Below the pieces are notes generated by a model, which was given only the letters and a program-made list of their open reading frames with translations, was not told where the DNA came from and searched no databases. Source: Micropruina glycogenica (GTDB lineage Bacteria > Actinomycetota > Actinomycetes > Propionibacteriales > Propionibacteriaceae). From it: a stretch of DNA of 64,000 bases. Positions 13,253-43,236 of this stretch are shown here, piece after piece. A program made the translations under genes and the position numbers. Where the stretch lies: positions 1,364,001 to 1,428,000 of the forward strand of contig NZ_LT985188.1 in NCBI RefSeq assembly GCF_900289045.1. Direction: 5' to 3'. Position 1 is the stretch's first letter. Every line of letters begins with the position of its first letter.

Positions 13253-14332
13253 TCACAGCGACTCGGCGGGACGCAGCGTCCAACCGGCCTCGGTCATGGC
13301 GGCCTGCAGCGACTTGGCGACCGGCTTGGTGACCTGAACGGCCAGGTAGCCGACCTCGCGGGCCGGGTCGTGCTCGATGCGGACATCCTCGACGTTGACA
13401 CCGGCGGCCTCGATGTCGGCGAACAACCGGGCCAGCGCGCCGGGGGCGTCGGGAATGGTCACCACGACCTCGGCATAGGCGACTCCCCCGGCGCCGTGCT
13501 TGCCGGGGATCGCCCGGGTGCCCTGGCGTCCGTCGGCGAGAAACCGGCGCAGCGCCTCGGGGTCGCCCCAGCCGGCCAGCAGCTCGTCCAACGAGTCGCG
13601 GACGGCCTCGAGCTCGGCCCGCACGGCCTCGGAGTTGGCGCTGATGATCTGGGTCCACAACCGGGGGTCGGACGCCGCGATGCGGGTGACGTCGCGCAGG
13701 CCCTGGCCGGCGAGGTTCAGGTGCTCGTCGGGCACGTCGTTGAGCCGTGCCGCGGTGAGCGAGCTCATCAGCTGCGGCAGGTGCGACACCTGCGCGACGG
13801 CCTCGTCGTGGTGGGTGGCGCCCATGCTGACGATGCGCGCGCCGCAGGCCCGGGCCAGGGCGTGCACGGTGAGCACCGCCTTCGCCCGCGAGGTGTCGTG
13901 CGGGGTGATCACCCAGGTGCGGTCGGCGAACAGGTCGGCGCGCGCGGTCAGCGGCCCCACGCGCTGCGAGCCGGCCATCGGGTGCGACCCGACATAGCGG
14001 GCCAGGTTCACCCCGCGGGCGCGCAGGTCTGCCAGCACGGTGCCCTTCACCGAGCCCACGTCGGTGACGGTGGCCTTGCCGTAGGTCGCGAGGGCGTCGG
14101 CGACCACTTCGGCCAGTTTGGCGGGCGGCACCGCGACCACGACCAGCCGGACGGTCGCCGGATCGATCGGTTCGGTGCTGCCGCCGCCGCGCGAGGCGGC
14201 CACCCGGGCGTGCGACGACACGGAGTCGATCAGGTGCACCTCGACGCCGGCCGTGGTCAGGGCGGCACCGACCGATGCCCCCACCAGCCCGGCGCCGATC
14301 ACCACCGCTGGGGTCAGGGACGGTTCGTTCAC
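13253..14332 (-). CDS. tyrA: Prephenate dehydrogenase with C-terminal ACT domain
   Basis: 359 residues from the GTG at 14332, which overlaps the pup stop (GTGA). The N-terminal Rossmann fold starts VVIGAGLVGASVGAAL. The prephenate dehydrogenase motifs follow (VTDVGSVKG, YVGSHPMAGSQ, the helical region with HDEAVAQVSHLPQLMSS). An ACT domain occupies the last 80 residues (VVVTIPDAPGALARLFADIE), which usually binds tyrosine for feedback control. The enzyme oxidatively decarboxylates prephenate to 4-hydroxyphenylpyruvate in tyrosine synthesis. It is second in the operon pup-tyrA-cmk-der. Confidence 0.94.
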   Translation of the reverse strand: MNEPSLTPAVVIGAGLVGASVGAALTTAGVEVHLIDSVSSHARVAASRGGGSTEPIDPATVRLVVVAVPPAKLAEVVADALATYGKATVTDVGSVKGTVLADLRARGVNLARYVGSHPMAGSQRVGPLTARADLFADRTWVITPHDTSRAKAVLTVHALARACGARIVSMGATHHDEAVAQVSHLPQLMSSLTAARLNDVPDEHLNLAGQGLRDVTRIAASDPRLWTQIISANSEAVRAELEAVRDSLDELLAGWGDPEALRRFLADGRQGTRAIPGKHGAGGVAYAEVVVTIPDAPGALARLFADIEAAGVNVEDVRIEHDPAREVGYLAVQVTKPVAKSLQAAMTEAGWTLRPAESL

Positions 14333-14523
14333 TGGCCGCCCTTCTGCACGAACGAGCGCACGTACTCTTCGGCGTCCGTTTCGAGCACCGAGTCGATCTC
14401 GTCGAGCAGGGCGTCGTAGTCGAGCGCCGGTTTGGCGGCGGCGTCGAAGCCGGCAGGGGTCGTCTCGGCCTGCGCCTGATCGGCGCGCGTGGTGCTGCGC
14501 TGCCGCTGGATGCGCTCGGCCAT
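14329..14523 (-). CDS. pup: Prokaryotic ubiquitin-like protein Pup
   Basis: 64 residues, mostly polar and likely disordered: Gln/Arg-rich N-terminus (MAERIQRQRSTTRADQAQAE), a helical acidic core (LDYDALLDEIDSVLETDAEEYVRSF) that in Mycobacterium binds the ARC/Mpa coiled coil, and the diagnostic end FVQKGGQ. The terminal Gln must be deamidated to Glu by Dop before PafA can attach it to lysines. Length matches Pup (60-70). A GGAGG-type site lies before the ATG (minus strand AGGAGGAACC-ATG). It overlaps tyrA by GTGA. In most actinobacteria pup follows dop and precedes prcBA; here dop is 15.5 kb away across another operon and tyrA follows. Confidence 0.93.
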   Translation of the reverse strand: MAERIQRQRSTTRADQAQAETTPAGFDAAAKPALDYDALLDEIDSVLETDAEEYVRSFVQKGGQ

Positions 14524-14587
14524 GGTTCCTCCTGGTTCGACCAGACAGCCTATCGCGGGTCACCCGGACGGCCGGACTCGCGGCGGC

Positions 14588-14646
14588 TGCGAACAATGGG
14601 TTGGTTTCACCACAGCAGTCGGTGGCGAAATCAACCCATTGTCGCG
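14588..14646. repeat. Large imperfect palindrome between pup and the five-gene operon
   Basis: Arms of about 24 bases (GCGAACAATGGGTTGGTTTC... and ...GAAATCAACCCATTGTCGC, plus inner CCAC/GTGG) flank a short loop. Nearly all positions pair. It lies in the divergent region between pup (leftward) and the metallophosphatase operon (rightward), about 65 bases before pup. It could be an operator, an RNA hairpin in a leader, or the end of a small mobile element. Confidence 0.65.
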
Positions 14647-14680
14647 AGGGGCTCACGGACCGCGGGTCGCCTGAACCAAA

Positions 14681-14789
14681 GGAACCGTCCCCTGAACCAG
14701 CGGGGACGGTTCTTCCGGTTCAACGGTCTGTCCCCACCCGGTTCAGCTGAACCGACGGAACCGTCCCCCGAACCGGAAGAACCGTCCCC
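14681..14789. repeat. Cluster of four GGAACCGTCCCC / GGGGACGGTTC repeats in both orientations
   Basis: Copies at 14681-14692, 14701-14713 (opposite strand), 14756-14768 and 14778-14789, interspersed with CCGGTTCA and CCGAACCGG. The same word recurs at 31783-31796 (overlapping the end of the DUF3054 gene) and at 61715-61725. Together with the palindrome, these fill most of the 382-base gap 14524-14905, which holds no gene I can support. Confidence 0.7.
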
Positions 14790-14905
14790 AACTACCCGCC
14801 GGCGCCCTGGAATCTCTCGCGCTACGCACTTGTACCCGGTTCATTCGGCAAGGGTCGCGAGTTAGGTTGCAGGAGGCCTCCACCCCGACCGAAGGGGGCA
14901 CCGTC

Positions 14906-17848
14906 ATGGAACTGCCGCTGCTGCTCGCGGGTCCGATCCTGCGCCGGGTCGACCCGAGCATCGTCAGCGTCTGGATGGCCTTGAGCAGCGACGCCACGGT
15001 GCGCCTCGACGTCTACGAGGGCCGGGTGGCCTTCGACACCACGAACCCCGTTTTCGTCTCGAGCGACGACGCCCCCGACCCCAACGCACCCAAGCCGTAC
15101 CCCGGTGCCGACACGATTCGCATCGGCGAACGGCTGCACCTCAGCCTGGTGTCGGCACGTATTCCACCCGCCTCGGGCAAGGTCTTCGAAGCAGATCGGC
15201 TGTACTCGTACAACATCACCATCTTCGCCTCGGGCGGCCGGCAAGAGACGCTGCAGTCGCTGCAACTGCTGCAGACCCGCCAGGTCAGCGGCACCACCGC
15301 CGGCCCGCTCGGCTACGCCGACCGCATGCTGCCCAGCTTCGCGCTGCCGCCCAGCAATCTGGACGACCTGCAGATCGCCTACGGCTCGTGCCGCCGCCCC
15401 GGCTACGACGACGGCGACGCCTTTCCCTGGCTCGACCAGTACCTGGCCGAACGGTTCGGCGACCCGCGGGCCCGCCTGCATCAGCTGTTTCTCGGCGGCG
15501 ACCAGATCTACGCCGACGACGTCGAGGACGTGCTGATGCGGCGCGTGGTCGAACTGGGCGTCGAGTTGATCGGCACCACCGCTGCGTCCGGTCAACTCGC
15601 CGGCGAGCCCGACCAGACACCGATCGAACGCGTCACCGTCGACAAGGTGCGGCTGCTCAAGCGCACCGTCGATCCGCAGAACCCCGACGCCGCTTACGAC
15701 GACGAGCCCGCCGCCGCCACCACGGCCAACCCGCTGCCCGCAGGCCCGCCCTGGTTCGGCGTGGGCAACCGGCTGTACCTGACCAACTGCAGCGCCCAAC
15801 TGACCAGCGAGGACGGCAAGAACCACCTGATCTCGCTGGGCGAGTTCGCCGCCGCCTACGTGCTCTACTGGGCGCCGGAATGCTGGGGCACCGACATTCC
15901 CGGCGCGCAACTGCAGACCGGCGCCACCGCGTCGGGCCCCGTGCACTGGCTGGACGTGCTGACCGACAACCAGTCCGTCGCCCTGCCCGACGTCGGCACG
16001 CCGGCGCGGGTGCCGCAGTACACCTTCACCGACGCCACGGTGCGCAAAGACGAACTGGCCAAAGAGGCCGCCCGGCGCGCGAAGCTCAGCCAGGCCGAGC
16101 GCGACGAGGAAGACCAGGACCGCGCCAAAGACAAGGCCAAACAAGACGCCAAGCGGCCCAAGGTCAGCCGCCGCCACCAGCGGGTGCACCGGCAGTTTCT
16201 GGCCGACCTGTGGCGGGCACAGCGACTGCTGGCCAACGTACCCACCTACATGATTTTCGACGACCACGACGTCACCGACGACTGGTTCCTGACCCCCATG
16301 TGGCGGCATCGGGTGCTGAGCACCGGGCTGGGCCAGACGATTCTGACCAACGCGATGACCGCCTACGCGCTGTTCCAGGACTGGGGCAACGACCCACGCC
16401 GCTACGACGTGACCGCGACCGATCGTCCTGACCTGGCGGGCGGGCTGCCCAGCGACGTGCTGGTCGCCGCGCAGAAGTTGTTCCCCGGCGGCGCCGACCA
16501 GGGCCCCGCGAAGGCGCCGTTCACCGCCCTGGGCAAGCTGTTCGGCCACGACCTCGACAACCAGGCCCTGCCCAACGGCGAGTTTCTCTCGGTCAAGCCG
16601 CCGATCGCCTGGCACTTCGTGCTCGACGGCCCCAAACACCGGGTGGTCGCGCTCGACAACCGCACCAGGCGCAGCTACGTCAGCGAGATCGGGCCCCCCG
16701 GCAACGTGTCGAAAGAGGCGCTGGACGCCCAGATTCCCAAGCCGCCGCTGCCGGCCGGGGTCGAGGTGCTGGTGGTGATCGCGCCCCTACAGGTGATCGG
16801 GCCGCCGGTGATCGATGAGGTGGTCAGTCGGGCCATCTACCGCATCTTCGACGCCGTGCACCGCGACGAGGTGGCCGGCGAGAAGATCTCGGGCGCCCGA
16901 CTGATGCCCGGCACCAACCCCGACGCACTCGAAACTTGGGCGCTCGACGAGAACACCTTCGAGTACCTGCTGTCGCGGCTTGCCGACTACGGACGGGTCG
17001 TGGTGCTGTCGGGCGACGTGCACAACGCCGCGTCGAACCTGATGAGCTACTGGCGCGGCACCAGCACCACCCCGGCCCGCATCGCCCAGTTCACCTCGAG
17101 CGGCTTCAAGAACGTGATGCCGGTCTACCTGCAGGCCCTCGACGCCAAGGCGATGCTGCTGCAGCAGATGCTGCGGGCCAAGCTGGGCGTCGAACGGCTC
17201 GGTTGGACGAAGCCCGACGCCGACCTGGTGCTGCTGCCCGCCGGACGCACCGAAGCCGAGCTGGTCACCGTCACGCGCGCCAAGCTGCTGCGCAGCCCGG
17301 TGCTGCTGCCGACCTGGGGCTGGATCGACGACAACTCCGACGGCGAAGACGACGAGGCCAAGCGGTCACGGCTCAACCCGGCCCGGCCGCCCGACTGGCG
17401 CTGGCGGGTGACGCCCCTGCTCGACGAGCGACCCGACGTGGTGCCCACTCCCCCGCCCAAAGACCCGAACGCGGTACGGCCCACCCCGATCCGGGTGTTT
17501 CCGCTCGACGAGGCCGGCATCGAAGACCTGGCGGGTGACCCGTCCACCACCTTCGCCGCCCTGCGCCAGGTGGCGGTGCGGCACCAACACGCCCTGGAGC
17601 GCATGCGCAACACCCGGCAGATGATGTTCCGCTCGAACTTCGGCATTTGCCGCTTCGAGAGCAAAGACGACCAGGTGACGGCGGTCGGCGAGGTGTACAC
17701 CCAGGCGATCGATCCCGACACCCAGCTGCCCGTGATGGCGCCGTACATGGTGCACAAGGCCCCGCTGGGGCCGCTCACCGAGGATCCGCCCGAACGGCTG
17801 CGCCGGTTCGTGATCGAGCGGGTGCCCGTGCCGGAGCCCACGCCATGA
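14906..17848 (+). CDS. PhoD-like metallophosphatase, first gene of five-gene operon
   Basis: 980 residues from the ATG at 14906 with GAAGGGGG upstream; the frame extends to 14867 but has no site there. The N-terminal 150 residues form a beta-rich domain before DLQIAYGSCRRPG. Metal-binding motifs of the PhoD family are complete: FLGGDQIYADD (Asp199), MIFDDHDVTDDW (about 452-458) and VVLSGDVHNAAS (about 702-709). An insert around residues 380-425 is highly charged (KAARRAKLSQAERDEEDQDRAKDK pattern) and looks like a coiled coil. There is no signal peptide or Tat motif, unlike secreted PhoD, so it probably acts in the cytoplasm or is exported another way. Substrate is unknown; phosphodiesters are likely. 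It overlaps the next gene by ATGA. Confidence 0.8.
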   Translation: MELPLLLAGPILRRVDPSIVSVWMALSSDATVRLDVYEGRVAFDTTNPVFVSSDDAPDPNAPKPYPGADTIRIGERLHLSLVSARIPPASGKVFEADRLYSYNITIFASGGRQETLQSLQLLQTRQVSGTTAGPLGYADRMLPSFALPPSNLDDLQIAYGSCRRPGYDDGDAFPWLDQYLAERFGDPRARLHQLFLGGDQIYADDVEDVLMRRVVELGVELIGTTAASGQLAGEPDQTPIERVTVDKVRLLKRTVDPQNPDAAYDDEPAAATTANPLPAGPPWFGVGNRLYLTNCSAQLTSEDGKNHLISLGEFAAAYVLYWAPECWGTDIPGAQLQTGATASGPVHWLDVLTDNQSVALPDVGTPARVPQYTFTDATVRKDELAKEAARRAKLSQAERDEEDQDRAKDKAKQDAKRPKVSRRHQRVHRQFLADLWRAQRLLANVPTYMIFDDHDVTDDWFLTPMWRHRVLSTGLGQTILTNAMTAYALFQDWGNDPRRYDVTATDRPDLAGGLPSDVLVAAQKLFPGGADQGPAKAPFTALGKLFGHDLDNQALPNGEFLSVKPPIAWHFVLDGPKHRVVALDNRTRRSYVSEIGPPGNVSKEALDAQIPKPPLPAGVEVLVVIAPLQVIGPPVIDEVVSRAIYRIFDAVHRDEVAGEKISGARLMPGTNPDALETWALDENTFEYLLSRLADYGRVVVLSGDVHNAASNLMSYWRGTSTTPARIAQFTSSGFKNVMPVYLQALDAKAMLLQQMLRAKLGVERLGWTKPDADLVLLPAGRTEAELVTVTRAKLLRSPVLLPTWGWIDDNSDGEDDEAKRSRLNPARPPDWRWRVTPLLDERPDVVPTPPPKDPNAVRPTPIRVFPLDEAGIEDLAGDPSTTFAALRQVAVRHQHALERMRNTRQMMFRSNFGICRFESKDDQVTAVGEVYTQAIDPDTQLPVMAPYMVHKAPLGPLTEDPPERLRRFVIERVPVPEPTP

Positions 17849-20800
17849 GCGCGTCGTCCGTGCTGCGCAGCCTCGCCGGCGAGGTGATCGACTTTCTGGT
17901 GTTCGTCGGCGAACTGCTGGGCGGCGCCAGCGCCGATCAGGCCCGCGAGGCGATTCTGCGCGACCTCGGGGCCAAGCCGGGCAGCGGCGGGTTGGTGCTG
18001 CCGGCCGCGTCCATGGATTCGGTCAAGGCCTACCGCGACTCGATCGACACCGACCTGCAGGCCGACATCGCGGCAGCCGCCGACATCGCGATCGTGATCA
18101 ACGCGATCATCGAGCAGATCGAGACCTGGGGCGGATCCGACTGGTCAGGCCGCACCGACACCCTGATCACCAGCCTGTTCGACGTGCTGGGCCGCACCTA
18201 CGTGCGGCAACGCTGGCCCAAGCTGTTTCTGGTGATCGAGGCGCTGGCGGTGGCCGGCGAACTCACCGGCTCGCTGGGCCCCGGCGAACAGGCGCTGCCG
18301 CACCGCTCGGGCGGCGACACCCACCCCGGCCGGTTCTTCGACTCGCTGCTGACCATTCTGAAGTTCGTCTGGAACCCCGGCCGAACCCTCGACGACCTGG
18401 ACGACACCCGCGAGTGGGCCACCGGCTCGACCCTGAACACCGCCCGCGACGAGTCGTTTCTGGTCATCGACGGCCTGATTCGCGGCATCGTCGCCGCCAT
18501 CGCGGTGATCGACCAGACCAAGGACGAGTTCGACGAGAACATTCTCAGCGACGTGATCGTCGGCTGGGACGGCAAGGGCCTCGACATCGACTCCGACGAG
18601 CGGCCCTCGGCGGCCGACCTGCTGGCCAGCCGCATGGTGTCGCTGTCGCTGCTGCACGAAGCCGACTCGGCCACCGAAGAGCTGAAGGTGACCTGGCTCT
18701 ACCTGCCGCGCCGGCTGGGCAACCCCGCCCGGCCGCACCAAGTGTTCCTCGCCCTCGGTGGCGCGCTGAGCATCGACCAGGTGCTCAACCCGCAGCGCAG
18801 CAGCCACTCGCCCGAGTGGCGGTTCAGGGTCGGGCTGAAGAGCGACGCCGGGGCCGCGCTGCTGATCAGTGGTGACGGCGTCGAGGCCAGCCCTGAGGCG
18901 TCCGGGCTGCAGGCGAGCTTCGGCTACGTGGCCACCCCCGACTCCAGCGGCATCAGCTACGCCCTGCCGCGGGCCACCGGCATGCGGGTCGAACTGGGCG
19001 GACTGTCGTTTCTGCTCACCCTGTCGGCCACCGGGGCCCGGGTGCTGGCGGTGTTCGACAGCTGCGCCCTGGTGGTGGACGGTTCGAGCGCCGACAGCTT
19101 CATGCGCAAGCTGCTGGGCGGCCGTCCGTACCGCACGATGTTCGGCTTCAGCCTGGGTTACGACTCGAACCTCGGCTTCATTCACGAACTGCACCGGGTG
19201 AGCGGCAAGGACGCCACCGGCGCCACCGTGCCGTTCGACTCGGCCGGGCCGGCGGGGCCGTCCGACCTCGACTTGACCCTGCCGCTGGGCGGCGGCGGCG
19301 CGCTGGGCATCAACCCGCTCGAGGTGGTGCTGCGGGTGGCCTGGCGCAGTGCGGACGCCCCCGCCACCGGCTGGGCGGTCGCCGCGGGCGGGCTGATCAC
19401 GTTCAGCGTCACCTGGGGCCCCCTGTACCTGCGGGTCGACCAACTCGGGCTGCTCGCCGAACTCGACACCATGAAGCTGCAGAAAGACCGCAACCTGGGC
19501 CTGGTCGACGCGCACGTCGACGCCAGCCTGCCCACCGGCATCGCGCTGAACATCGATGCCGGCGCGATCAGCGGCGGCGGGGCGATTCACCACGATCCGG
19601 CCTCGGGCGACTACTACGGCGCGGTGGTGCTGCGCATCGCCAAGCGGGTCACGCTGACCTGCCTGGGCCTGGTGTCGACCCGCGACGGCCAGGGCAACCA
19701 GCTCACCTCGTTCATTCTGATCGGCACGGTCGAGCACCTCGGGCTGACCGCCGGCTTCATCACCCTGGACGGCCTGGGCGTGCTGTACGCCGCCGACCGC
19801 ACCCTCGACGTGCCCGCCGTACGCGCCGCACTGCCGTCCGGCAAGCTCAAATACCTGCTCTTTCCGGCCGACCCGGTGAAGACGCTGCCCGAGATGGTGG
19901 CCGGCCTGCGCACCTTCTTTCCACCCAAGGAAGGCACCCACATCTACGGGCTGCTGGTGAAGCTGACCTTCGGCAACGCCGACCATCCGCTGCTGCGGGC
20001 CGACCTGGCGTTGATGCTCGAACGCGACGGCAACACCGACACCTCGCGGCTGCTGGTGCTGGGCCGGGTCAGTTCGGTGCTGCCGCAGGAGCAGGCGGCC
20101 GTGCTCACGCTGAACCTCGACGTGGTGGGCGAGTTCGACTTCGACACCGGCTTCGCCGCCCTCGACGCGGTGCTGTACGAGTCGAAGCTGTTCGGCCGGT
20201 TCACCCTCACCGGCGCGGCGGCGTTCCGGCGGGCCCGCGGCCTCGGCTTCGCGCTTGCCATCGGCGGGTTCAACCCGCGGTTCACCCCGCCGGCCGGCTT
20301 CCCGGTGGTGCCGCGGGTCACCGTGGCGTTGACCAGCGGCGACAACCCCAAGCTGATCATCGAGGCCTACCTGGCGATCACGCCCAACACGCTGCAGTTC
20401 GGCTGCACCGCCTCGCTGTACGCGGCGGCGTTCGGGTTCTCGATCCAGGGCTACATCGGCTTCGACGTGCTGATCGCCTTCTGGCCGCCGCACTTCATCG
20501 CCGACTTCAAAGCCGGCGTGCAGCTCAAGCGGGGCAGCCGCAGCCTGTTCAAGGTCGACGTGAGTGGCACCCTCGAAGGCCCGCTGCCGCTGCGCGTGGC
20601 CGGCAAGGCCACCTTCGGCATTCTGTGGTGGGACTACACGGTCTCGTTCGACAAGACCATCATCGGCGGCAGCAACTCGGTGGTCAGCGAGCTGCTGGAC
20701 GTGCTCACCGAGCTGCTCACCCGGCTCGACGACCCGGCCAGCTGGCGCACCGAGCTGCCGTCCACCGCCGGGCAACTCGTCGGGGTGCGCACCAACCCGG

Positions 20801-21345: not shown

Positions 21346-24155
21346 CCGAGCCCGCCCTGCTGTTTCTGCCCTGGGTGCGCCGGGGAGGCGCGCTGAGCCT
21401 GCCGCCCGACCTGCCGAGCGGTCATCCGCCCAGCCACGTCAGCACCACCGTCGGGGTGAGCGTGAACGATCGGCCGGGCGCCGACGTGCCGGTGCAGCTG
21501 CTCGGCCCCGGCGACGTCACCGGTGTGGCGCCGCAGCAGGTGATTCGCAGCGACCCGGCCCCCAACGCCCGCACCTTCGAGTCGAACTACCTCGCCTTGG
21601 TGGAGTTCGACGACCCGGGCCTGCCCTGGCTGTTCACCCCGGCGTCCGCGTCGGACGGCAAGCTGCGGCCCTGGCTCTGCCTGGTGGTGGTGCGCGAGCA
21701 GCCCGGCGTGCGACTGCTGCCGGCCGGCAAGGGTGCGCTGCCGGTGCTGCACGTCGGCACCCCCGCCCGTCCGGAGGTCGAGCTGCCGAACCTGGCCGAC
21801 TCGTGGGCGTGGGCGCACGCCCAGGTGGCCCTCGACGGGGCGGCCGGCTCAGCGGCCGTGGCGGCGGCGCTGGCCGGCGATCCGGCCCGCAACCTGTCGC
21901 GCCTGATGTGCGGACGGCTACTCGCCGAGCAGACCCCGTACCTGGCCTGCGTGGTGCCCACCTTCGAGGCCGGACGGCGGGCCGGGCTGGGCGACGACCC
22001 GGGCGACGCCCAAGGCCCGGCCTGGACGATCGCCGACGGCATGGGCACCGTCGAGCTGCCGGTGTACCACCATTGGCGGTTCGCCACCGGGCCGAGCGGC
22101 GACTTCCAGTCGCTGGCGCTGGCGATTCGGGGCCGTCCGGTCGAGGACGGCTTCGGATTGCGGCCGATCGACCTGTCGACCGCCGGGCTGGGGCTGAGCG
22201 GCACCGACGACGCCCAGGAACTGCTCGGCGGCGCGCTGCTGGCCCTGGACGCCCCTACCCAGCGGTGGAGCGACCCGGCGCTGCCCGATCGGTTCTCAGC
22301 TGCGCTCGAGCCGGTGCTCAACGCTCCCGATTCGGCGCCGGCCGCCGAGCCCCTGCTGGCCCCGCCGCGGTACGGCTCGGCCTACCGCACGCCGGCCACG
22401 CTCGCCTCGGGCAGTTGGTACGAGCAGCTCAACCTCGACCCGGCCGCGCGGGTGGCGGCGGCGTTGGGCACGCTGGTGATCCAGCGCCAGCAAGAGACCT
22501 TGGCCGCGGCCGCCTGGGAACAGTCCGCCGACCTGTCGGCAGCGACCCGGGTGGTGGGGTTGGCCGGGCTCGGCTTCGCGCTGGCCGACAGCCTGCACCG
22601 GCGGCACGTGGCGCCGCTGTCGCCCGAGGTGGGGCTGTTCGTGCTGGCCCCGCTGCGCGCGGCCATGATGACCGCACCACCCGCCTCGGGCGGGCAGAGC
22701 TTCGCCGTGCAGTGGAACCGGGCCCGGCTGCCGGGCGCCGCGCTCGGCTCGGCCGTCCGCCGGGTCACCCGGGTGCGCGGCCCGGCCGTCCGCACCGCCG
22801 AGCGCGACGGCACCATGCCGCCGCTGCTCGACTGGATCGGCAGCATGGTGCCCAGCGCCCGGCTGGCGCGCAGCTTCGCGGCCCCCAGCGGCCCGCTCAC
22901 CTTCGACGGTGTCGGCCCGACGGTGCCGTCCGCGCGCGTGCTCTCTTGGGCGGCGCTCACCGCCGACGCGGTCACGAATTCAATGCCCCACCCGGGCTTC
23001 GCGCTGTCGGCCACCCCGGCCCCGGCGGGTCCGCGACCTTTTCCGCTGCCGGGCGGGATCGTCACCGGAGGGGTGTTCACCGAGGCGGTGGGCGGGCCGG
23101 CGGCCCGCCCGGCGCTGCGCCGGCCCGACGATGGCGGCGGCCCGAGCCCGATCCGGCGGCGACCGGGTGACGGCGGGGAGCCCCCAGATCCGCCGGATCC
23201 GCCCGATCTGCCGGATCGGCCCCACCACCCACCCCCGCGCGACAGTGCCGCCGCGGCGCTCTTCCGCACCGTGGCGGCCAAGCAGCTCGGCCGCTTCGCG
23301 CCGGTCACTGCTGACTCGGGCACCGCGACCGGCACCGTGGTGCTCGGCACCCTGATGGCCGAGGCGGTGGCGCTCACCGCGCCGATGCGCACGTTCACGG
23401 CCGCGATCGGTGCGCTGTTCACCACCGCGCCGGCACCCGCCACCGATGACACCCCCATGCCCGACCTGCGGTTCACCCCCCGGTTCGACTCCCCGATGGC
23501 GCACTCGTTGGCCGAACTGGGCGAGCAGTGGCTGCTGCCGGGGCTGGCCGGCGTGCCCGCCAACACCGCCCTGGGTCTGCGCACCAACGGCGCCTTCGTC
23601 GAGGCGTTCATGGTCGGGCTCAACCACGAGTTCGGCCGTGAACTGCTCTGGCGCGAGTTCCCCACCCGGCTGACCGCCACCTTCTTCGACCGGTTCTGGG
23701 ACGCCGCGGTGGCCCCCACCGAGCCGCCCGACATTCCCCAACTGGACCAGTGGGCCGACCGCGCGCTGGGCGCGCCGACGATTCGTCCCGAGCGGTTCGT
23801 GTTGCTGCTGCGCAGCGAGCTGATGCGCCGCTTCCCCGACGCGGTGGTCACCGCCACCAAGCGCGGCGCCGCGCCCGGCCAGGCCCTGCTGCCCACCTTC
23901 CGCGGTTCGCTCGACCCCGACGTCACCTTCTTCGGGTTCGCGATTCCGCTGGCCGATGCCGACCAGTACGCGATCAGCATCGCCGAGCAGCCGGGTGCGC
24001 CGCGGTTCGGTTTCGAGGTGGGCGAGGCTCCGAGTGACGTGAGTCACGCGCCGGCGACGGACGCCTCGGCGGCCAAACTCGCCGGGCGGCTGCGCCAGTT
24101 GCCGTCCCGCATCACGATTCCGGTGCAGGTGCTGATGAGGAAGCCCGAGTCATGA
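21342..24155 (+). CDS. Unknown 937-residue protein of five-gene operon
   Basis: It begins MTEPALLFLPWVRRG and is coupled to the previous gene by ATGA. Recognisable blocks: ARTFESNYLALVEFDDPGLP followed by WLFTPA and LRPWLCLVVV (residues about 75-125), VYHHWRFATGPSGDFQSLA (about 240), a Pro/Asp-rich linker (PPDPPDPPDLPDRPHHPPP, about 610-630), and a C-terminal part with NHEFGRELLWREFPTR and RPERFVLLLRSELMRRFPDA then DVTFFGFAIPLADA. I recall similar blocks only in uncharacterised proteins next to the same kinds of neighbours. No enzyme motif, signal peptide or membrane helix is visible. The linker suggests two separable globular halves. Confidence 0.75.
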   Translation: MTEPALLFLPWVRRGGALSLPPDLPSGHPPSHVSTTVGVSVNDRPGADVPVQLLGPGDVTGVAPQQVIRSDPAPNARTFESNYLALVEFDDPGLPWLFTPASASDGKLRPWLCLVVVREQPGVRLLPAGKGALPVLHVGTPARPEVELPNLADSWAWAHAQVALDGAAGSAAVAAALAGDPARNLSRLMCGRLLAEQTPYLACVVPTFEAGRRAGLGDDPGDAQGPAWTIADGMGTVELPVYHHWRFATGPSGDFQSLALAIRGRPVEDGFGLRPIDLSTAGLGLSGTDDAQELLGGALLALDAPTQRWSDPALPDRFSAALEPVLNAPDSAPAAEPLLAPPRYGSAYRTPATLASGSWYEQLNLDPAARVAAALGTLVIQRQQETLAAAAWEQSADLSAATRVVGLAGLGFALADSLHRRHVAPLSPEVGLFVLAPLRAAMMTAPPASGGQSFAVQWNRARLPGAALGSAVRRVTRVRGPAVRTAERDGTMPPLLDWIGSMVPSARLARSFAAPSGPLTFDGVGPTVPSARVLSWAALTADAVTNSMPHPGFALSATPAPAGPRPFPLPGGIVTGGVFTEAVGGPAARPALRRPDDGGGPSPIRRRPGDGGEPPDPPDPPDLPDRPHHPPPRDSAAAALFRTVAAKQLGRFAPVTADSGTATGTVVLGTLMAEAVALTAPMRTFTAAIGALFTTAPAPATDDTPMPDLRFTPRFDSPMAHSLAELGEQWLLPGLAGVPANTALGLRTNGAFVEAFMVGLNHEFGRELLWREFPTRLTATFFDRFWDAAVAPTEPPDIPQLDQWADRALGAPTIRPERFVLLLRSELMRRFPDAVVTATKRGAAPGQALLPTFRGSLDPDVTFFGFAIPLADADQYAISIAEQPGAPRFGFEVGEAPSDVSHAPATDASAAKLAGRLRQLPSRITIPVQVLMRKPES

Positions 24156-27100
24156 CCGCCGCCGTGAACCTCGGCCCGCTCACCGCCGACGCCCTGCTGG
24201 CCGACGCCCGGCTGAGCGGCGAGCTCGGCCCGGGCAGTCACCCGCTGGCGCTTTTGCCGGTGCGGCTCGAAACTCGCTACGCCGGCGGCGAGTTGCTGGT
24301 GCGCATCTACCCCGACCAGGTGCACGTCGACGCGCACGACGAGCGGCTGTCGGCGGCCGAGCAACAGGCCGGGCAGGACTTCTGGCGCGCCCAGTGGCGC
24401 ACCGGTGCGAACCAGGCGCGGCAACAGCGCATCTGGGCTCCGCTGGCCGGCCGCTACGGCGCCGGCCGGGCCGGCTGGGTGGTGCGCGCGACTCGTCCGA
24501 GCAACGGCACGCAGCGGCCGACGGGCGAGGTGGGCGACGACGCGCCGCTCGCGGTCGAACCGTCGTTCGCCCCCATCGACACCACGGACGAGCGCCGCAC
24601 CCCCGTCGCCCGGCTGCTGCCGGCCCGCTGGACGGTGACCGCGTACGCGGGCGGCCAGGTGCTGGCGGTGGCCACCGGCGCACCGATCACCATCGACCCC
24701 GCGGTCGGCCCCGACCTGGCCGCTCCGCTGGTGGGCGACGCCGACGATCACGAGGTGGCCGCGGTCGACACCGGCATGAACTGGTTGGTCGACTTCGCCG
24801 GCGCCGAGCAGCTGGGCATGGCGGTGCGGCTGCCGGTGACCGGCCCCGTCGACCTGCTGGTGGCCACCGGGGTGCGGGGCGTCGACCCGGCGGCGGGAGC
24901 CGTCCAGTTGGCGGCGCTGTTGCAGGCGCAGCGGTATTCGGCCGGGCTGGGTTTTCTGCCGCCCGAGGCGCCGACGAACAACTCAGACGCGGCCGGCTCG
25001 GCGTGGTCGAGCGGCGAGGTGGGTGCCTGGTCGGCGGCCGATACCGAACCCGCGACCGGTTCGGTGGGGGCGGCCACGGCGGTGGCGCTCGGCGTGGCAC
25101 TGCCCGGGTCGCTGCCCCACGCGGGCGACACCGACGATCTCACCGCCCCGATGACGCGCGCTCTGTGGCCGGCGACGTGGGGGTACTGGCTGGCCCAGTT
25201 CGCCGGGGTGGACGGCGCGAGCACCGACTGGGGCCGTGACTTCGCCGTGCGGTTCCTGAGGCCGGGCGGGCCGCTGCCCACGCTGCGGGTCGGACGGCAG
25301 CCGTACGGCCTGCTGCCCGTCACCTCGGTGGGCCGGTTCGCCGGCGACCCCCGGTCGACCCGGCTGAGCCGGGTGATCGCCGGGCTGCGCGACGGCGCGT
25401 GGCGGCCGGCCGTCGACCTGGCCCCCAGGGTCGGCCGGGCCGACGTGGCCACCGACCTGGTCGACGTGCTGAGGCTCGAGGGACGCTCCGACGACCTTCG
25501 GCTGCGGCGCAGCATGGGCGCGCGGTTCGCCGACAACCTGCAGCGGTTACTGGGCGCGGCGACGACCGAGGGCGGGTTCTGGAATGCAGCCCGCGACCGG
25601 TCGCTGCCGCTGGCCAACGCGGCCGGGCTGGGCCTGGTGCCGGGGGCACTCACGGTGCACGAGCCGTCCACACACCCGGTGACGCTGCCGCTGGTGGCGC
25701 CCTCGACCGACCTGGGTTTCATCGCCGCGCTGCTGGCCGCCGACCCCGACGCCCTGGCCGGCGCCACCGACGCCCCGGTGTCGGTGCTGGCCGCGCTGCT
25801 GCGGCACGGGCTGCTGCGCGAGCACGCCGACGCCGCCGCCCGGCTGCTGTCGCTCGGCGCCGCCGACGCCGAGTTCTACGGCTTCGGCGACGACGCCACC
25901 GGCTGGACGGCCCGGCGCGCCACCGTGCTGCCCGACGGCCACACCGTGGCGCAGCGCCTGGCCGACGGACCCGTGGGCTCGCTGACCGACTTCCGGACGG
26001 CCGTGAACACCCTGGCGGCGGCGTCCGTGCCCGCTCTGGAGCGGCAGTTGCTGCAGTCGATCGACGCCACCTCGCACCGGCTGGACGCCTGGGCCACCGC
26101 GCTGGCCACCGCCCGGCTCGACGAGGTGCGCACGGCCAACCCCGACGGCGTGCTGATCGGCGGGTACGGCTGGGTGGAGGGGCTGGCCCCCACGACCAGC
26201 GCTGCGGCCACGCCACTGCCGACCGGAGAGCCGGGGCCGCTGCTGGCGGCGCAGAGCGACCCCGGGTTCGTCCATGCCCCCTCGGTGCACCAGGCGCAGG
26301 TCGCCGCCCTGGCCCGCAACGCCCACCTGGCCCACGGCGGGGGCGAGCACGACCCGTTTGCGGTCAGCCTGACCTCAGAGCGGGTGCGGCTGGCCCGCTG
26401 GCTCTTCGACGGCGTGCGCGCGGGCCGCAGCCTGGGGGCCGTGCTCGGTTACCTGGTCGAGCGCGACCTGCACGAACGCCGCCTCGACTTCGCCGTGCTG
26501 CCGGCCCGTGAGGTGTGCCCGCTGCCCGGGCAGGAGGCCTTCTCGCTCGAAGCCAGGCGGCTCGACGGCCTGCGGCTGCACCAGTTGTGGGCGGGCAGCG
26601 AAGATCACGCGGTCGATCACCTGGTGTCGATGAGCCGCACCCCCACCGACGACGAACGCCGTCGCGCCGTGGGCGTGCTGCGCCGGCTGGCCGCAGCCGT
26701 CGACGCAGCGGCCGACGCCCTGCAGGCCGAGCAGGTGCACCAGTTCGCCCGGGGCGATCTCAGCCGGGCGGTCAGCAGCGTGGCCGACCTCGACCGCGGC
26801 CTGGCTCCCCCGCCCGAGCTGGACTTTCTGGCCACACCACGCACCGGGGCCGCGGTCACCCACCGGGTGGTCGTGCTTTTCGACCCCGACGCCGCCCCGG
26901 CCGCCGGCTGGGCAACCGCGGCGACGTCGCCGTCCGCGGCCGCCGAACCGGCACTGGACGCCTGGCTGAGCCACCAGCTCGGGCCCGCGATCGGACGGGT
27001 GCTGCGCCTGGCCGGTGAGCCGCCCGTCGACGTGCCGTGGGGCAGCCTCGGCATGGCGGCCGGCGATTTCGTGCGGTTGGCCGGTGGCGGCTCGGCGTTG

Positions 27101-28234
27101 CGCGAACTCGCCGTGCGGGCGGCGGTGGCGGCGGGCCGTCCGGTCGACGTCGCCGAGCTGACGCCAGACGACGACCTGCTGGCCCTGCTCGAACTGGGCG
27201 GCTCGCTGGCGGCCCTGGTGGCCTCGGCCAAGGGGCTGGACGGCGCCGCCCTCCAGCCGCCGCACGCCGACCCGGTGCCCGGCGTCGACCTGCCCGAACT
27301 GGCCGCCCGCGCGGCGGCGGCCCGGCGTGCGCTCGGCGCGGTGGTCGACCGGTTGAACGCCGCCCTGGCGACCCCCGACGACAGCGACGCTCTGCAGGCG
27401 GCCGTGGTGGCATCGTGGCCGTTCGCGGTGGGCGAGGCGGGGCTGCCGACGGTGAAGTCCGGGTGGGTGGCGGCCGCCGCCCGGGTGCTGGCCGACCTGA
27501 CCGCCCGGCTGGCCGAACCGGTCGCGGCGAGCGACGATGCCGCAGCCCTGGGTCGCGAACTGGCGGCCCTGCAGGGGCCGGGCTTCGTGGCGGTGCCCAG
27601 GTTCACGGCCGGCACCATGCCCGACCTGATCGCCTCGCGCGACGACCCCGCGCTGGTCGGCGGCGACCCCCTGGCCGCCGAGGTGTGGGTGACCCGCATG
27701 GAGCGAGTGCGCGAGCCCTTGGCGCGGTTGGGCATCGCGGCGCGTGAGGCCGAGGCCCTCGGCGGGCCGGCCTTCGAGCCGGTGGTGGCACAGGTGCCCT
27801 ACCACCCGGGTGACACCTGGAACGCCTTGCCGGCGCCCCATTACGTCGATGCGGCGACCTCGCTGCTGCTGATCGGCGGGCCGGTGCTGCGTGCAGGCGC
27901 CACCCTCGCCGGGCTGCTGGCCGACGAGTGGGCCGAAGTGGTGCCGTCGGCGTCCGAGACCACCGGGGTGGCCTTTCGCTACGACCCGCCGGAATCGATG
28001 GCGCCCCAGGCGATTCTGCTGGCCGTGCCGCCGGTACTCGACGAGCCGTGGACGGTGGGCCGACTCAACCAGGTGCTGGTCGAGACCCTCGAACTGGCGC
28101 ACCTGCGGGCCGTGCCGCCCGAGGCGCTGGGGCCTGCCCGGCAGTATCTGCCGGCCGCGGTGCTGGCGTTCAACGCCGAAGGCGACGCGCCCTCCACCGA
28201 TCCCAACGGGCTGACCCCGGCGGCGGGAGGCTGA
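24152..28234 (+). CDS. Unknown 1360-residue protein of five-gene operon
   Basis: The longest protein of the window, coupled by ATGA. The N-terminus has LALLPVRLETRYAGGELLVR then IYPDQVHVDAHDERL (about 30-65), the central part is alanine-rich and helical, and the C-terminus carries YHPGDTWNALPAPHY, AGLLADEWAEVVPS, ETTGVAFRYDPPESMAPQAI and RLNQVLVETLELAHLRAV. From memory these are conserved blocks of a family without known function that travels with the 937- and 577-residue types. No catalytic motif, membrane span or export signal is evident. A large scaffold or tail-like structural role is possible but unproven. Confidence 0.75.
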   Translation: MTAAVNLGPLTADALLADARLSGELGPGSHPLALLPVRLETRYAGGELLVRIYPDQVHVDAHDERLSAAEQQAGQDFWRAQWRTGANQARQQRIWAPLAGRYGAGRAGWVVRATRPSNGTQRPTGEVGDDAPLAVEPSFAPIDTTDERRTPVARLLPARWTVTAYAGGQVLAVATGAPITIDPAVGPDLAAPLVGDADDHEVAAVDTGMNWLVDFAGAEQLGMAVRLPVTGPVDLLVATGVRGVDPAAGAVQLAALLQAQRYSAGLGFLPPEAPTNNSDAAGSAWSSGEVGAWSAADTEPATGSVGAATAVALGVALPGSLPHAGDTDDLTAPMTRALWPATWGYWLAQFAGVDGASTDWGRDFAVRFLRPGGPLPTLRVGRQPYGLLPVTSVGRFAGDPRSTRLSRVIAGLRDGAWRPAVDLAPRVGRADVATDLVDVLRLEGRSDDLRLRRSMGARFADNLQRLLGAATTEGGFWNAARDRSLPLANAAGLGLVPGALTVHEPSTHPVTLPLVAPSTDLGFIAALLAADPDALAGATDAPVSVLAALLRHGLLREHADAAARLLSLGAADAEFYGFGDDATGWTARRATVLPDGHTVAQRLADGPVGSLTDFRTAVNTLAAASVPALERQLLQSIDATSHRLDAWATALATARLDEVRTANPDGVLIGGYGWVEGLAPTTSAAATPLPTGEPGPLLAAQSDPGFVHAPSVHQAQVAALARNAHLAHGGGEHDPFAVSLTSERVRLARWLFDGVRAGRSLGAVLGYLVERDLHERRLDFAVLPAREVCPLPGQEAFSLEARRLDGLRLHQLWAGSEDHAVDHLVSMSRTPTDDERRRAVGVLRRLAAAVDAAADALQAEQVHQFARGDLSRAVSSVADLDRGLAPPPELDFLATPRTGAAVTHRVVVLFDPDAAPAAGWATAATSPSAAAEPALDAWLSHQLGPAIGRVLRLAGEPPVDVPWGSLGMAAGDFVRLAGGGSALRELAVRAAVAAGRPVDVAELTPDDDLLALLELGGSLAALVASAKGLDGAALQPPHADPVPGVDLPELAARAAAARRALGAVVDRLNAALATPDDSDALQAAVVASWPFAVGEAGLPTVKSGWVAAAARVLADLTARLAEPVAASDDAAALGRELAALQGPGFVAVPRFTAGTMPDLIASRDDPALVGGDPLAAEVWVTRMERVREPLARLGIAAREAEALGGPAFEPVVAQVPYHPGDTWNALPAPHYVDAATSLLLIGGPVLRAGATLAGLLADEWAEVVPSASETTGVAFRYDPPESMAPQAILLAVPPVLDEPWTVGRLNQVLVETLELAHLRAVPPEALGPARQYLPAAVLAFNAEGDAPSTDPNGLTPAAGG

Positions 28235-28235
28235 C

Positions 28236-29969
28236 ATGGCGTCGATCACCACGTTCTTCAGGCTCGAGCCCGACCCGCTGCGGCCCGACGTCACGGTGGG
28301 TGCGACCGCGCCGCTGCACGACCCGCTGTGGCTGTTGGCCCGGCAGTGGCAGACCGGCGAGTTCGCCGCGCAAGACGGCGGCACGCCCGTCGTGGCCCGC
28401 TGGCGCGGAGTGGTGGCGCCGCCGACCCGGTTCGTGGCCGGCCGCATTCCGCCCGACACCCAGCTGCAGGCACCGCGCTTCGATGCGTCGGCGGCACCGT
28501 TGGAGACGCTGATCGAGGCGGTCGGGACGACGCTGCCGGCGGGTGCCGACGGGTTGGCCGGGCTGCGGCTCGGCGTCGACACCGGACGGCTGTTTCTGCG
28601 GCTGTTCGCCGCGCAGAGCACGTCGCGCGACTACGGCCCGGCCCTGGTCACGGCGTTCGCGGTGCCTCGCTACGCCGACGACGTGCTGGCCCAGGCCGAT
28701 CAGGCCACGGCCGGCTATGCGCGGCTGCATGGCGGCCGCAGCCTCGACGGTCGCCGGTTGCGCGCCGAGCTGGCGGGGCGTCCGTTGCCCCGGTTCGGCG
28801 AGCAGGTCGCCGCGGGCGACGTGGCCGAGGTGCGCGCGGCCTGCGCCGACTGGCTGGCCCTGGTGGCGGAGCTGTTCGACGACGTCGACGCTGCCGCAGA
28901 GAGTTGGCAGCCCGACCGGTTCGAGTACACCGCGTCGATCTCGGCGCGGCTCGGCCCGAGCGGCTTCGACGAGACCACGCTGACCGCGCAGCGCTACGAC
29001 AGCGACGTGCTCGACTGGTACGAGTTCGACGTCAACGGCGAGGTGAACCTGGGCACCACACCGGCCGAGGCGGGCGAGACGCTGGTGCGCACGGTGATGC
29101 CGGCTCCGGTGACGGCGCCGGGCCTGCCGGCGCGGCGGTTCTGGGAGTTCGAGGACGCCGCGGTCAACCTGGCCGCCCTCGCCCCCGCCGAAACCGACCT
29201 GGCCCAGGTGCTGCTCATCGAAACCCTGTCTGGCTACGGCAACGACTGGTTCGTGATCGGCGTCGACCTGCCGGTCGGACGGCTGGTGCGCTCGACCTCG
29301 TTGGTGGTCACCGACACCTTCGGTGCGCGCACGCTGTTGAACCCGATCGGCACCACTTCCGCCTTGGCGCCCGGCTGGAGCATGTTCCAGCACGCGATGC
29401 CCTTCGACGACGCGGCCCCCGAGGGTGCGACGATCCGCAACCTGTTGTATCTGGCGCCGCGGCTGGCCCGTCCGGTGGTCGGCGGCGTGGTCGAAGAGGT
29501 GCTGCTGGCCCGCGACGAGGTGGCCAACCTGAGTTGGGCGATCGAGCAGATCGTCGAGTCGCCGCTGCAGGGGCCGGTGCGGCTGAGTTCGGCCCGTCCG
29601 CCCGACCCGCCGGGGGACCCCGACGTGGCCCCCGACTACCACCTGGCGCAGGCGCCACCCCCGCACTGGATTCCGCTGCTGCCGGTGCGCACCGGGTCCG
29701 ACGAGCAGGTGTCGCTGGCCCGCGGTTCGGTGCTCGACCTCGACGGACGCCGGGTGGTGACGAGCGTCACCGAGCTGCTCGGCGGTGGCCCGGACGGCGC
29801 CCTGCTGATTCCCGAAGAAGAGGTGCCGGTGGGTGGGCTGCTGGTGCAGCGCAGCTACCAGGCCGCCCGCTGGACCGACGGCACCCTGCACGTCTGGGCC
29901 GCACACCGCACCAAGGTGCCGGGCTCGGTGCCGCCCAGCGGCGTCCGGTACGACTACCTGATCGAGTGA
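28236..29969 (+). CDS. Unknown 577-residue protein, last gene of five-gene operon
   Basis: The ATG follows the previous stop by a single base. The N-terminus has FFRLEPDPLRPD and the block HDPLWLLARQWQTGEFAAQD (about 28-47), which I recall as the hallmark of this uncharacterised family. Later blocks include YGNDWFVIGVDLPVGRLVRS and NLLYLAPRLARPVVGGVVEE. The C-terminus is beta-rich (QRSYQAARWTDGTLHVWAAH). No signal peptide or membrane span is seen. The operon ends 64 bases before the stop of the convergent dop gene, with a REP-like GGGAGATCCCGGCG word in between. Confidence 0.75.
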   Translation: MASITTFFRLEPDPLRPDVTVGATAPLHDPLWLLARQWQTGEFAAQDGGTPVVARWRGVVAPPTRFVAGRIPPDTQLQAPRFDASAAPLETLIEAVGTTLPAGADGLAGLRLGVDTGRLFLRLFAAQSTSRDYGPALVTAFAVPRYADDVLAQADQATAGYARLHGGRSLDGRRLRAELAGRPLPRFGEQVAAGDVAEVRAACADWLALVAELFDDVDAAAESWQPDRFEYTASISARLGPSGFDETTLTAQRYDSDVLDWYEFDVNGEVNLGTTPAEAGETLVRTVMPAPVTAPGLPARRFWEFEDAAVNLAALAPAETDLAQVLLIETLSGYGNDWFVIGVDLPVGRLVRSTSLVVTDTFGARTLLNPIGTTSALAPGWSMFQHAMPFDDAAPEGATIRNLLYLAPRLARPVVGGVVEEVLLARDEVANLSWAIEQIVESPLQGPVRLSSARPPDPPGDPDVAPDYHLAQAPPPHWIPLLPVRTGSDEQVSLARGSVLDLDGRRVVTSVTELLGGGPDGALLIPEEEVPVGGLLVQRSYQAARWTDGTLHVWAAHRTKVPGSVPPSGVRYDYLIE

Positions 29970-30033
29970 CCGGGGGTCGAGTCGGGAGATCCCGGCGAGA
30001 CCAACTGGCCCTACCCGTCGAGCAGGTGCGGCG

Positions 30034-31392
30034 TCAGAGCCTCGCGTTCACGTACCCATCCAGACCGCCGGCCTCCCCGACGTCCACAGCAGTACCACCG
30101 AACGGGTCGTCGAGTCGCACCCGCCGCCGTCCGGAGCCGAGCAGCACCCACGTCCAGTCGACCGCACCCACCGATGCCGCGCGCTCGCCCGCCAGCCGGC
30201 CTCGGACGTACGCCCGGGTGTCCGAAGACGGCTCGACCATCGCCCGCTCGACCTCGCTCGACGACACCAACTCGGGCATCCGGCCCGCCCGCACCAACGC
30301 CGCGTACGGGCTGCGGTCGCTCAACTCGGCCCAGGTCAGGTCGAGCTGCGCAAGGCGCGGGTGATCCCAGTCGAGCCCGTCACGCCGTCTGAAGCTCTGC
30401 AACAGGTTGAGCTTCGCCACCCAGTCGAGTTCGCCGCAGGCCAGCGGCCCACTCTCAAGGCGGTCGAGGGTTGCCGACCACGCGCCGAGCACCTCGGCGT
30501 CACCCACACCCGCAGCCTGAACCTGAGCGTGATAGTCGCGCTGCACCTGGACGGCGGTCAGCCGACGTCCATCGGTCAGTTCGAGTCTCGCGGTGCAGCC
30601 GAGGTCGCGGCTGACCGCCTGCACGGCGCCAAGCGGATCGGCGAGTCGAACCGGTTTCAGGGCACCGGCTTCGATTGCCGCCAGCACCGCCGATGCCGTG
30701 CCCAGCTTCAGCCACGTCGAGGTGTGTGAACGGTTGGCGTCACCGGCGATCACGTGTAGCCGGCGCCAGCGCGAGCGGTCGGCGTGCGGCTCGTCGCGGG
30801 TGTTGATCAGCGGACGCCGAATCGTGGTCTCGAGCCCCGTGATCGCCTCGAAGAAGTCCGCCCGCTGCGACAGCTGAAAGCCGGGCTGCGTGCTGGCCTG
30901 GCCCAGCCCGACCCGTCCGGCACCGGTGAACACCAGCCGGGTCACCACGAACGGCAAGAAGCCCTCGACGATCGCCTCCCAGGCGACCGCCCGACTGATC
31001 AGGTGGTTCTCGTGATAGCCGTACGACGCTCCTTTGCCGTCGGTGTTGTTCTTGAACAGCAGCACCGGTGTGCCGAGTGCCTCGGTCGCCGCGCGGGCTC
31101 CTTCGGCCACGATCGCGTCACCGGCCAGGTCGGCCAGCAGCGCACCCCGTGGCGAGGTGACCTCCGGCGTCGAGTATTCGGGGTGCGCGTGGTCCACGTA
31201 GAGCCGCGCGCCGTTGCCCAGAAATCGGTTGTGGCTGTCTTCGAGCGGAATCGAGTGGTCGTCGTCCAGCCGTGCCCGCGTGCCCGGGCCCGGGTAGCTA
31301 TCGACCACCGCGGCCGAGACCACGCTCGGGTGCAGCTCGGGCCGTCCGGGCGCCAGAATGCCGTACTCGGTCTCGGTTCCCAGCAGCGGCAT
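30034..31392 (-). CDS. dop: Pup deamidase/depupylase Dop
   Basis: 452 residues starting MPLLGTETEYGILAPG; a second ATG three codons upstream (31401) is possible. The glutamine-synthetase-like active-site features are present: GTETEYG (base-binding Glu), NGARLYVDHAHPEYSTPEV, FKNNTDGKGASYGYHENHL, QLSQRADFFE and NTRDEPHAD, then RRLHVIAGDANRSHTSTWLK. The HPEYSTPE and GDAN variants favour Dop over the ligase PafA. It converts Pup-Gln to Pup-Glu and removes Pup from targets. A TACGAT -10-like box lies a few bases upstream, so the message may be nearly leaderless. In other actinobacteria pup follows directly; here the five-gene operon lies between. Confidence 0.93.
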   Translation of the reverse strand: MPLLGTETEYGILAPGRPELHPSVVSAAVVDSYPGPGTRARLDDDHSIPLEDSHNRFLGNGARLYVDHAHPEYSTPEVTSPRGALLADLAGDAIVAEGARAATEALGTPVLLFKNNTDGKGASYGYHENHLISRAVAWEAIVEGFLPFVVTRLVFTGAGRVGLGQASTQPGFQLSQRADFFEAITGLETTIRRPLINTRDEPHADRSRWRRLHVIAGDANRSHTSTWLKLGTASAVLAAIEAGALKPVRLADPLGAVQAVSRDLGCTARLELTDGRRLTAVQVQRDYHAQVQAAGVGDAEVLGAWSATLDRLESGPLACGELDWVAKLNLLQSFRRRDGLDWDHPRLAQLDLTWAELSDRSPYAALVRAGRMPELVSSSEVERAMVEPSSDTRAYVRGRLAGERAASVGAVDWTWVLLGSGRRRVRLDDPFGGTAVDVGEAGGLDGYVNARL

Positions 31393-31432
31393 GCCCCACA
31401 TCGTAGGGTCGCGCTCCCCCTAGGCTGATGTC

Positions 31433-31798
31433 ATGAAGTGGTGGACGACCCTCGGCCTCGATCTGATCGTGGTGCTGCTGTTCGCAACGATCGGACGGCT
31501 CTCGCACGGTGAGGCGGCCGACCCCCTGGGCGTTCTGACCACGGCGTGGCCGTTCGTGATCGCCCTGGCCGGCGTGACCGTGGCCCTGATCGGCATGCAG
31601 CGCCCCACCGACACCTGGCTGAACGGGCTCTTCGTCTGGGCCGGCACCCTCGGCTTCGGCATGTGGATTCGCGCCAACTGGGGCGAAGGCGTCCAGGCCA
31701 GCTTCGTGGTCGTGGCCGGCATCTTTCTGGGTGCCCTGATGATCGGCTGGCGGGTCATCGCCGCCCGCCGCTCGGCGCGAGTTGGGGACGGTTCCTAA
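31433..31798 (+). CDS. DUF3054-type small membrane protein
   Basis: 121 residues with four hydrophobic segments: TLGLDLIVVLLFATIG, AWPFVIALAGVTVALIG, GLFVWAGTLGFGMWIRANWG and SFVVVAGIFLGALMIGWRVI. The motif FATIGRLSHGE and the four-helix layout match DUF3054 proteins, which lack a known function. TAGGCT lies 6 bases before the ATG and there is no Shine-Dalgarno, so a leaderless transcript is likely. The last codons (RVGDGS) and stop coincide with a GGGGACGGTTC repeat, which may have replaced the original C-terminus. It is divergent from dop, with only about 30 bases between starts. Confidence 0.8.
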   Translation: MKWWTTLGLDLIVVLLFATIGRLSHGEAADPLGVLTTAWPFVIALAGVTVALIGMQRPTDTWLNGLFVWAGTLGFGMWIRANWGEGVQASFVVVAGIFLGALMIGWRVIAARRSARVGDGS

Positions 31799-39851: not shown

Positions 39852-40187
39852 GCGCCGCATCGCGGGTGGACACGCGCTCATGCCGATGATCGAGCTTGCA
39901 GATCCATCTGGTGCCGAGAGGCCAGGCATGAATTCGACCGACCACCGTGAGTGCCGCATGGACGCTCACCGCGTGATCTACAGGCCTCGCTGATGACTCT
40001 TGTGCCAGTCTGGTCCAGACCGAATAGTTCGGCCCGTACTCGCAAGCTTCTTCGGTACTCTTGCAAATGGCGAACGCCGAAGAGCTTGCGACCTTTCGTG
40101 CGCCGTCCCGCGGGCCTGAGCGGTCGTGATCCATGCGATCCACTTAGTTCCCGACGTCCTCGATACCGCTCTCTGGAAGGAGATAGT
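39852..40187. other. Gap after metH: junction of second island, with inverted repeat
   Basis: 336 bases with no supported gene. CGCAAGCTTCTTCGG at 40041-40055 and CCGAAGAGCTTGCG at 40077-40090 form an inverted repeat with one unpaired base and a 21-base loop, about 100 bases before the NACHT gene start. Base composition falls from here into the NACHT gene, so the left edge of the island lies in this gap. A GAGCGC...GCGCTC hairpin just after the metH stop may end metH transcription. Confidence 0.5.
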
Positions 40188-42995: not shown

Positions 42996-43236
42996 TGCGT
43001 GGGGTCATCCATTTGATTCTCATGGAGGTGGTCGAACGCCAAGGCGAGCCAAGCCTGCAGTGACAGAAGGCATGTGCTTCGGTCCTTGCTCGCCACCAAA
43101 GAACGTCCGGTTCTGCCGCACCTGTGCGTGAGGGTAGCCTTCGGCTGGCGTTCACCCGAGCGCGCAGGCCTTCCTGTGCCGCAGATCGCTGCGCTGGTTC
43201 AGTACGGGCGATCAGGCGAAGCCGACAGCAAGTTGT

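Follow-up and report, generated by a model that had tools for sequence, protein, structure and literature searches.

The pupylation genes dop and pup of Micropruina glycogenica are held apart by a five-gene operon on the opposite strand. Taken as a whole, the arrangement is very probably best explained by insertion of a horizontally spread operon at a transcription-unit border of a pup locus without the 20S proteasome, the operon being a passenger relative to pupylation. The closed 3.84 Mb genome of M. glycogenica (G000) was analysed over a 64-kb window (the whole stretch of DNA that was examined, C1:1364001-1428000), to which all positions refer.

Both genes were found on the minus strand: pup (14329-14523; 64 aa; PF05639, 66 bits) and dop (30034-31401; 455 aa; PF03136, 477 bits; TIGR03688, 474.7 bits, against 332 bits for PafA and below the curated Dop cut-off of 492). 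The proteasomal ATPase gene arc (31872-33911, minus strand; TIGR03689, 711 bits) lies beyond dop with a small plus-strand gene (31433-31798) between them, and tyrA (13253-14331, minus strand; PF02153/PF20463) stands directly after pup, whose stop overlaps the tyrA start (GTGA). The operon (14906-29969, plus strand) consists of g1 (14906-17848, 980 aa), g2 (17845-21345, 1166 aa), g3 (21342-24155, 937 aa), g4 (24152-28234, 1360 aa) and g5 (28236-29969, 577 aa), neighbouring genes overlapping or being separated by 1-bp gaps. Its start is divergent from pup (382 bp apart) and its end is convergent with dop (64 bp apart). The original prediction of two minus-strand genes with a five-gene plus-strand operon between them was borne out by these profile matches and open reading frames. 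The flanking orders, trmI-arc-dop and pup-tyrA-cmk-der, were also as claimed, but pup-tyrA is not the normal core order: relatives with 20S genes carry prcB-prcA directly after pup, a pair that is missing in Micropruina, where tyrA is found instead. Elsewhere in the window, the GC content falls from ~0.68 in the surroundings to 0.55-0.56 at 40001-43000, in a long open reading frame (39951-42995).

Dop-pup spacing, defined as the distance between the HMM matches of pup and dop on one contig, was compared in related genomes, as the original prediction had proposed. The pair was located on one contig in 65 of 198 genomes of the family Propionibacteriaceae, always on one strand, with a median spacing of 234 bp. 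Within a set of 57 relatives, 41 carried both genes on one contig, again always on one strand (median 232 bp without G000 and G003, where the spacing is 15.6 kb and 15.5 kb, respectively). When the pair was on one contig in other genera, the genes shared a strand and were mostly within 0.5 kb. Uninterrupted pairs also occur in the same genus: G002 has an unbroken trmI-arc-dop-pup-tyrA-cmk-der series, its dop being separated from pup by 25 nt. In G001, the gap of ~0.48 kb holds no gene; the pup leader and dispersed repeats account for it, and no operon fragment was found in it. Since the contiguous state is shared by G002 and all other genera, the split is derived, and the idea that the operon entered a once continuous locus was upheld. 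A search for the same interruption in all relatives, including distant ones, returned uninterrupted loci, and the insertion reading stands.

The position of the operon is shared within a Micropruina subgroup. The cultured strain Micropruina sp. KQZ13P-5 (G003), assembled independently, carries the entire operon at the same place (75-85% protein identity). For G005, the operon ends are on two contigs, one with g1 adjoining pup and one with g5 close to dop; a thioesterase-like gene (named by reading of the sequence) separates g5 from dop. For G004, contig C74 carries g5 and shares 55 identical bases at its end with the dop-bearing contig C28, so that the order is g5, a two-component pair, a thioesterase, a second copy of the 3' part of dop, a putative lipoprotein and dop (cargo named from sequence). 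G004 thus probably carries the operon between dop and pup too; its pup side is not joined in the assembly. The duplicated dop piece of G004 (114 bp, 98%; L067:358-1540) flanks ~0.9 kb with the putative lipoprotein gene, and dop has two alternative 3' ends there. Trees were made with the der, cmk, tyrA and dop proteins and with locus DNA, rpoB being missing from two draft genomes. The five Micropruina species are near-equidistant and the trees give no clear branching order: the best trees nest the operon-less G001 among the carriers, and carrier monophyly was not rejected (AU p 0.36 for protein, 0.30 for DNA), which would allow for one gain followed by one loss. One gain fits all the data, with G001 either branching first or having lost the operon.

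The nesting of G001 would also suit an ancestral split, in which a deletion removed the operon from the contiguous genomes, and such deletions do occur: a genome of the related genus Propionicimonas (G177) has its operon deleted with both ends left. However, dop and pup are contiguous, without any remnant, in the outgroup species G002 and in all other genera, by which this account is refuted at the level of the family; the gap of G001 is free of operon fragments as well, and a loss in G001 alone could have taken place. Overall, we regard an ancestral split as highly improbable. Nothing was counted in favour of an assembly artefact, the chance of which is close to nil, because the same order is present in the independent G003 assembly at ~80% protein identity and the operon ends of G005 adjoin pup and dop.

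On the pup side, insertion of the operon is delimited by the hexamer TAGGCT (14547-14552, minus strand), located 28-29 nt upstream of the pup start codon (ATG) in both G000 and G002 and conserved in all six Micropruina genomes. TAGGCT is the putative -10 box of a pup promoter. The dop gene of G002 ends with CGA TAG, and this stop codon forms the first bases of TAGGCT. The precise join sought in the original prediction could accordingly be placed approximately, just upstream of the putative -10 box and just after the dop stop, but not to an exact position: neither a target-site duplication nor an att repeat was found at the operon, so the exact join and the recombination route are not readable from the sequence. 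No direct or inverted repeat linking the two insert ends exceeded the shuffled level.

Repeats in the gaps at both ends had been pointed out earlier, but they proved to be nothing special. The pup-side gap contains dispersed elements at 14588-14789, comprising a hairpin (14593-14642) and GGGGACGGTTC repeats (14682-14789). GGGGACGGTTC belongs to a dispersed family with 374 copies genome-wide (reversed control: 0); it also occurs at 31784 and 61723, is often arranged in arrays spaced 22-24 bp, and was seen in other Micropruina. A hairpin and repeats related to those at 14588-14789 are also present in the uninterrupted gap of G001. GGGAGATCCCGGCG (at most 2 mismatches) had 4 occurrences in the window where 2.1 were expected, i.e. 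it is at chance level. Repeats were therefore ruled out as insertion footprints, being dispersed or at chance level, with no end-to-end repeat above the shuffled level.

The interrupted locus belongs to a pupylation system without 20S core. The Pup protein ends with VRSFVQKGGQ and thus has the GGQ/GGE type of C-terminus (KGGQ), and two PF03136 genes were found in the G000 genome, dop and a second copy taken as pafA. None of the six Micropruina genomes, two of which are rated 100% complete, encodes the 20S subunits (PF00227), which are present as a pair in five relatives; Bpa (PF10759) is likewise absent from all six. The C-terminus of Arc is without the GQYL docking motif in G000, G002 and G003. 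In the five Micropruina genomes that were compared, alignment with PDB 4b0r/5lrt revealed a Dop missing most of its Dop-loop: the span from GTE to NGARLY is 61 residues, against 86-95 in seven relatives, although the loop has been described as highly conserved (PMC9556782). A relative of another genus (G016, genus label g12) has kept prcBA, yet its Arc is without GQYL, its Dop is without the Dop-loop and Bpa is absent; GQYL and Bpa are thus not strict 20S markers. A pup gene directly before tyrA without prcBA was seen recurrently, in Micropruina, Propionicimonas, part of genus g12, G024 and G060 (loci L070, L171-L179). Pupylation without a 20S core is known from Corynebacterium glutamicum and Micrococcus luteus (PMC8223512). 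Like the actinobacterial 20S-less loci described there, Micropruina has pup, dop, arc and a presumed pafA, and shares with 20S-less species in general the absence of prcBA and Bpa and an Arc without GQYL (PMC8223512). Unlike in those loci, an unrelated 15-kb operon splits dop from pup, the unit with tyrA-cmk-der begins with pup, and Dop is without its conserved loop. Since G002 is without prcBA and uninterrupted, the loss of the 20S core preceded the insertion.

Family assignments of the operon products were made with profile searches. The g2 protein belongs to DUF6603 (PF20248, 319.4 bits against a gathering threshold of 27), and g1 has a weak similarity to PhoD-like phosphatases that falls short of membership (PF09423, 23 bits with a cut-off of 27). 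No match was obtained for g3-g5 in Pfam, NCBIfam, PHROGs or PADLOC, and none for g1-g5 against PADLOC-DB (anti-phage defence) and PHROGs (phage) at E 0.01. A search of a literature library returned no paper naming DUF6603 and no function for it. The C-terminal domain of g2 was modelled (pLDDT 78) as a long antiparallel beta-meander, for which the structural matches were porin-type barrels and ApoB sheets, with Z up to 13.9 but an rmsd of ~12 Å. At this rmsd the likeness is one of arrangement only, and a relationship with porin-type barrels or ApoB was not retained. The g5 model (pLDDT 76) had no match in the PDB with E under 0.17.

Homologues in genome contigs were numerous (47 loci for g5, ~40 for g4 and ~35 for g3). 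More distant g2-g3-g4-g5 series with an unchanged gene order were found in Acidobacteria, Nitrospira, cyanobacteria, Mycobacterium, Streptomyces, Bacteroidetes and others (loci L114-L157), homologous modules are also present in Proteobacteria, and g3-g4-g5 were found in a thermoplasmatal archaeon. Like other DUF6603 proteins, g2 matches the family, and it heads a conserved g2-g3-g4-g5 series; in the Micropruina operon, this series is preceded by g1. The g5 protein is 75% identical to that of a Propionicimonas, 63% to that of Desertimonas flava and 62% to that of Sphingomonas sp. JC676, compared with 46% (Desertimonas) and 39% (Sphingomonas) for Der. Judged by these identities, the operon has spread horizontally, g5 being more conserved than Der across distant hosts. 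Composition was dropped as a sign of foreign origin: the third-position GC of the operon codons (0.91-0.94) equals that of der and cmk. In Propionicimonas G177, dop and pup are contiguous and an operon remnant is found on another contig beside GAPDH; a nearby SDR gene also neighbours the intact operon of G185. The same operon is thus at different places in two genera, beside GAPDH/SDR in Propionicimonas and between dop and pup in Micropruina. The G177 remnant (L103:9928-10400) has the last 51 g5 codons joined to the g1 start, the rest being deleted, although the join may be one of assembly. From the conserved gene order and the large size of the proteins, the operon product is probably a multi-protein assembly.

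The interval has also received other DNA. More than 1 kb separates dop and pup in nine of the 65 family genomes, representing four genera (genus labels g1, g5, g15 and g18, which are not the operon genes). The cargo is as follows: an RHS-repeat protein and a small downstream gene in G138, a large protein related to this RHS-repeat protein in G149, a subtilase in G145, a CvpA-trypsin membrane protease in G132, alpha/beta hydrolases in G119 and G142, and a DEAD-box helicase in G032. In G138 (L165:5412-11158), the 1815-aa RHS-repeat protein and the 101-aa downstream open reading frame look like a polymorphic toxin/immunity pair. The pup-prcB spacing in genomes with dop-pup cargo is ~140-190 bp, and the arc-dop interval is variable too (8.5 kb in G016). 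The suggestion of a favoured insertion site thus held, with unrelated cargo in different lineages. Independent gains of unrelated genes by other lineages point to a permissive landing place and not to a dedicated att site, and we conclude that transcription-unit borders in the pup locus tolerate insertion, with no sign of a dedicated integration site. Integrase-less chromosomal hotspots between conserved genes likewise combine a single interval, lineage-specific cargo and conserved flanks; unlike such hotspots among strains of one species, the dop-pup variation spans genera of one family.

Recurrent cargo between dop and pup, together with the duplicated dop 3' piece around the extra DNA of G004, could be taken to mean that the interval is a true site-specific integration hotspot for a mobile element with its own recombinase. 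An integrative mobile element would have a recombinase gene and att repeats at its ends, whereas no recombinase gene was found among g1-g5 and no tRNA or flanking repeat at the operon; moreover, the cargo elsewhere consists of ordinary chromosomal-type genes, and the arc-dop interval varies likewise. A dedicated hotspot is therefore unlikely. The operon might alternatively be tied to pupylation, for instance by encoding substrates, or a protease that replaces the lost 20S core, and have been selected to sit where it does, inside a pupylation locus that has no 20S core. Against this, profile searches detected no protease family in g1-g5, homologous modules are present in Proteobacteria, Nitrospira, cyanobacteria and a thermoplasmatal archaeon, the module lies outside the Pup locus in Propionicimonas, and G001 and G002 possess a 20S-less system although both are free of the operon. 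We consider such a tie very unlikely. Given its presence in phyla not known for Pup and its absence from these two Micropruina genomes, the operon is probably a passenger relative to pupylation.

For the insertion of a passenger operon, the following course of events is proposed. The prcB-prcA pair would have been lost first in the genus, after which pup would have become the first gene of the pup-tyrA-cmk-der unit and its linkage to dop may have mattered less, selection being presumably relaxed. The horizontally spread g1-g5 operon would then have been inserted between dop and pup in an ancestor of the Micropruina subgroup (G000, G003, G005 and probably G004). The insertion point would have been the border between two transcription units, directly after the dop stop and directly before the putative pup -10 box, so that dop, pup and the operon could each keep working signals. 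More tentatively, and with slightly less than even confidence, g2-g5 (the DUF6603 beta-meander protein and three large proteins without a family, in conserved order at ~40 loci in many bacterial phyla and, as g3-g5, in the thermoplasmatal archaeon) may constitute an undescribed, horizontally mobile multi-protein system. Its arrival between dop and pup would then be a single case among several independent insertions at a permissive border, in a proteasome locus undergoing decay.

The textbook linkage of dop and pup can thus be broken by insertion, and the break is at a reusable border where pup appears to have its own promoter. The findings give an order for the decay of a Pup-proteasome locus, with the 20S core and Bpa lost and the operon inserted later, pup having moved into the tyrA unit. 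They also bring to attention a widely spread gene module without known function. Finally, the role of the Dop-loop may become easier to settle with the help of natural Dop enzymes that are devoid of it and come from organisms without a 20S core.
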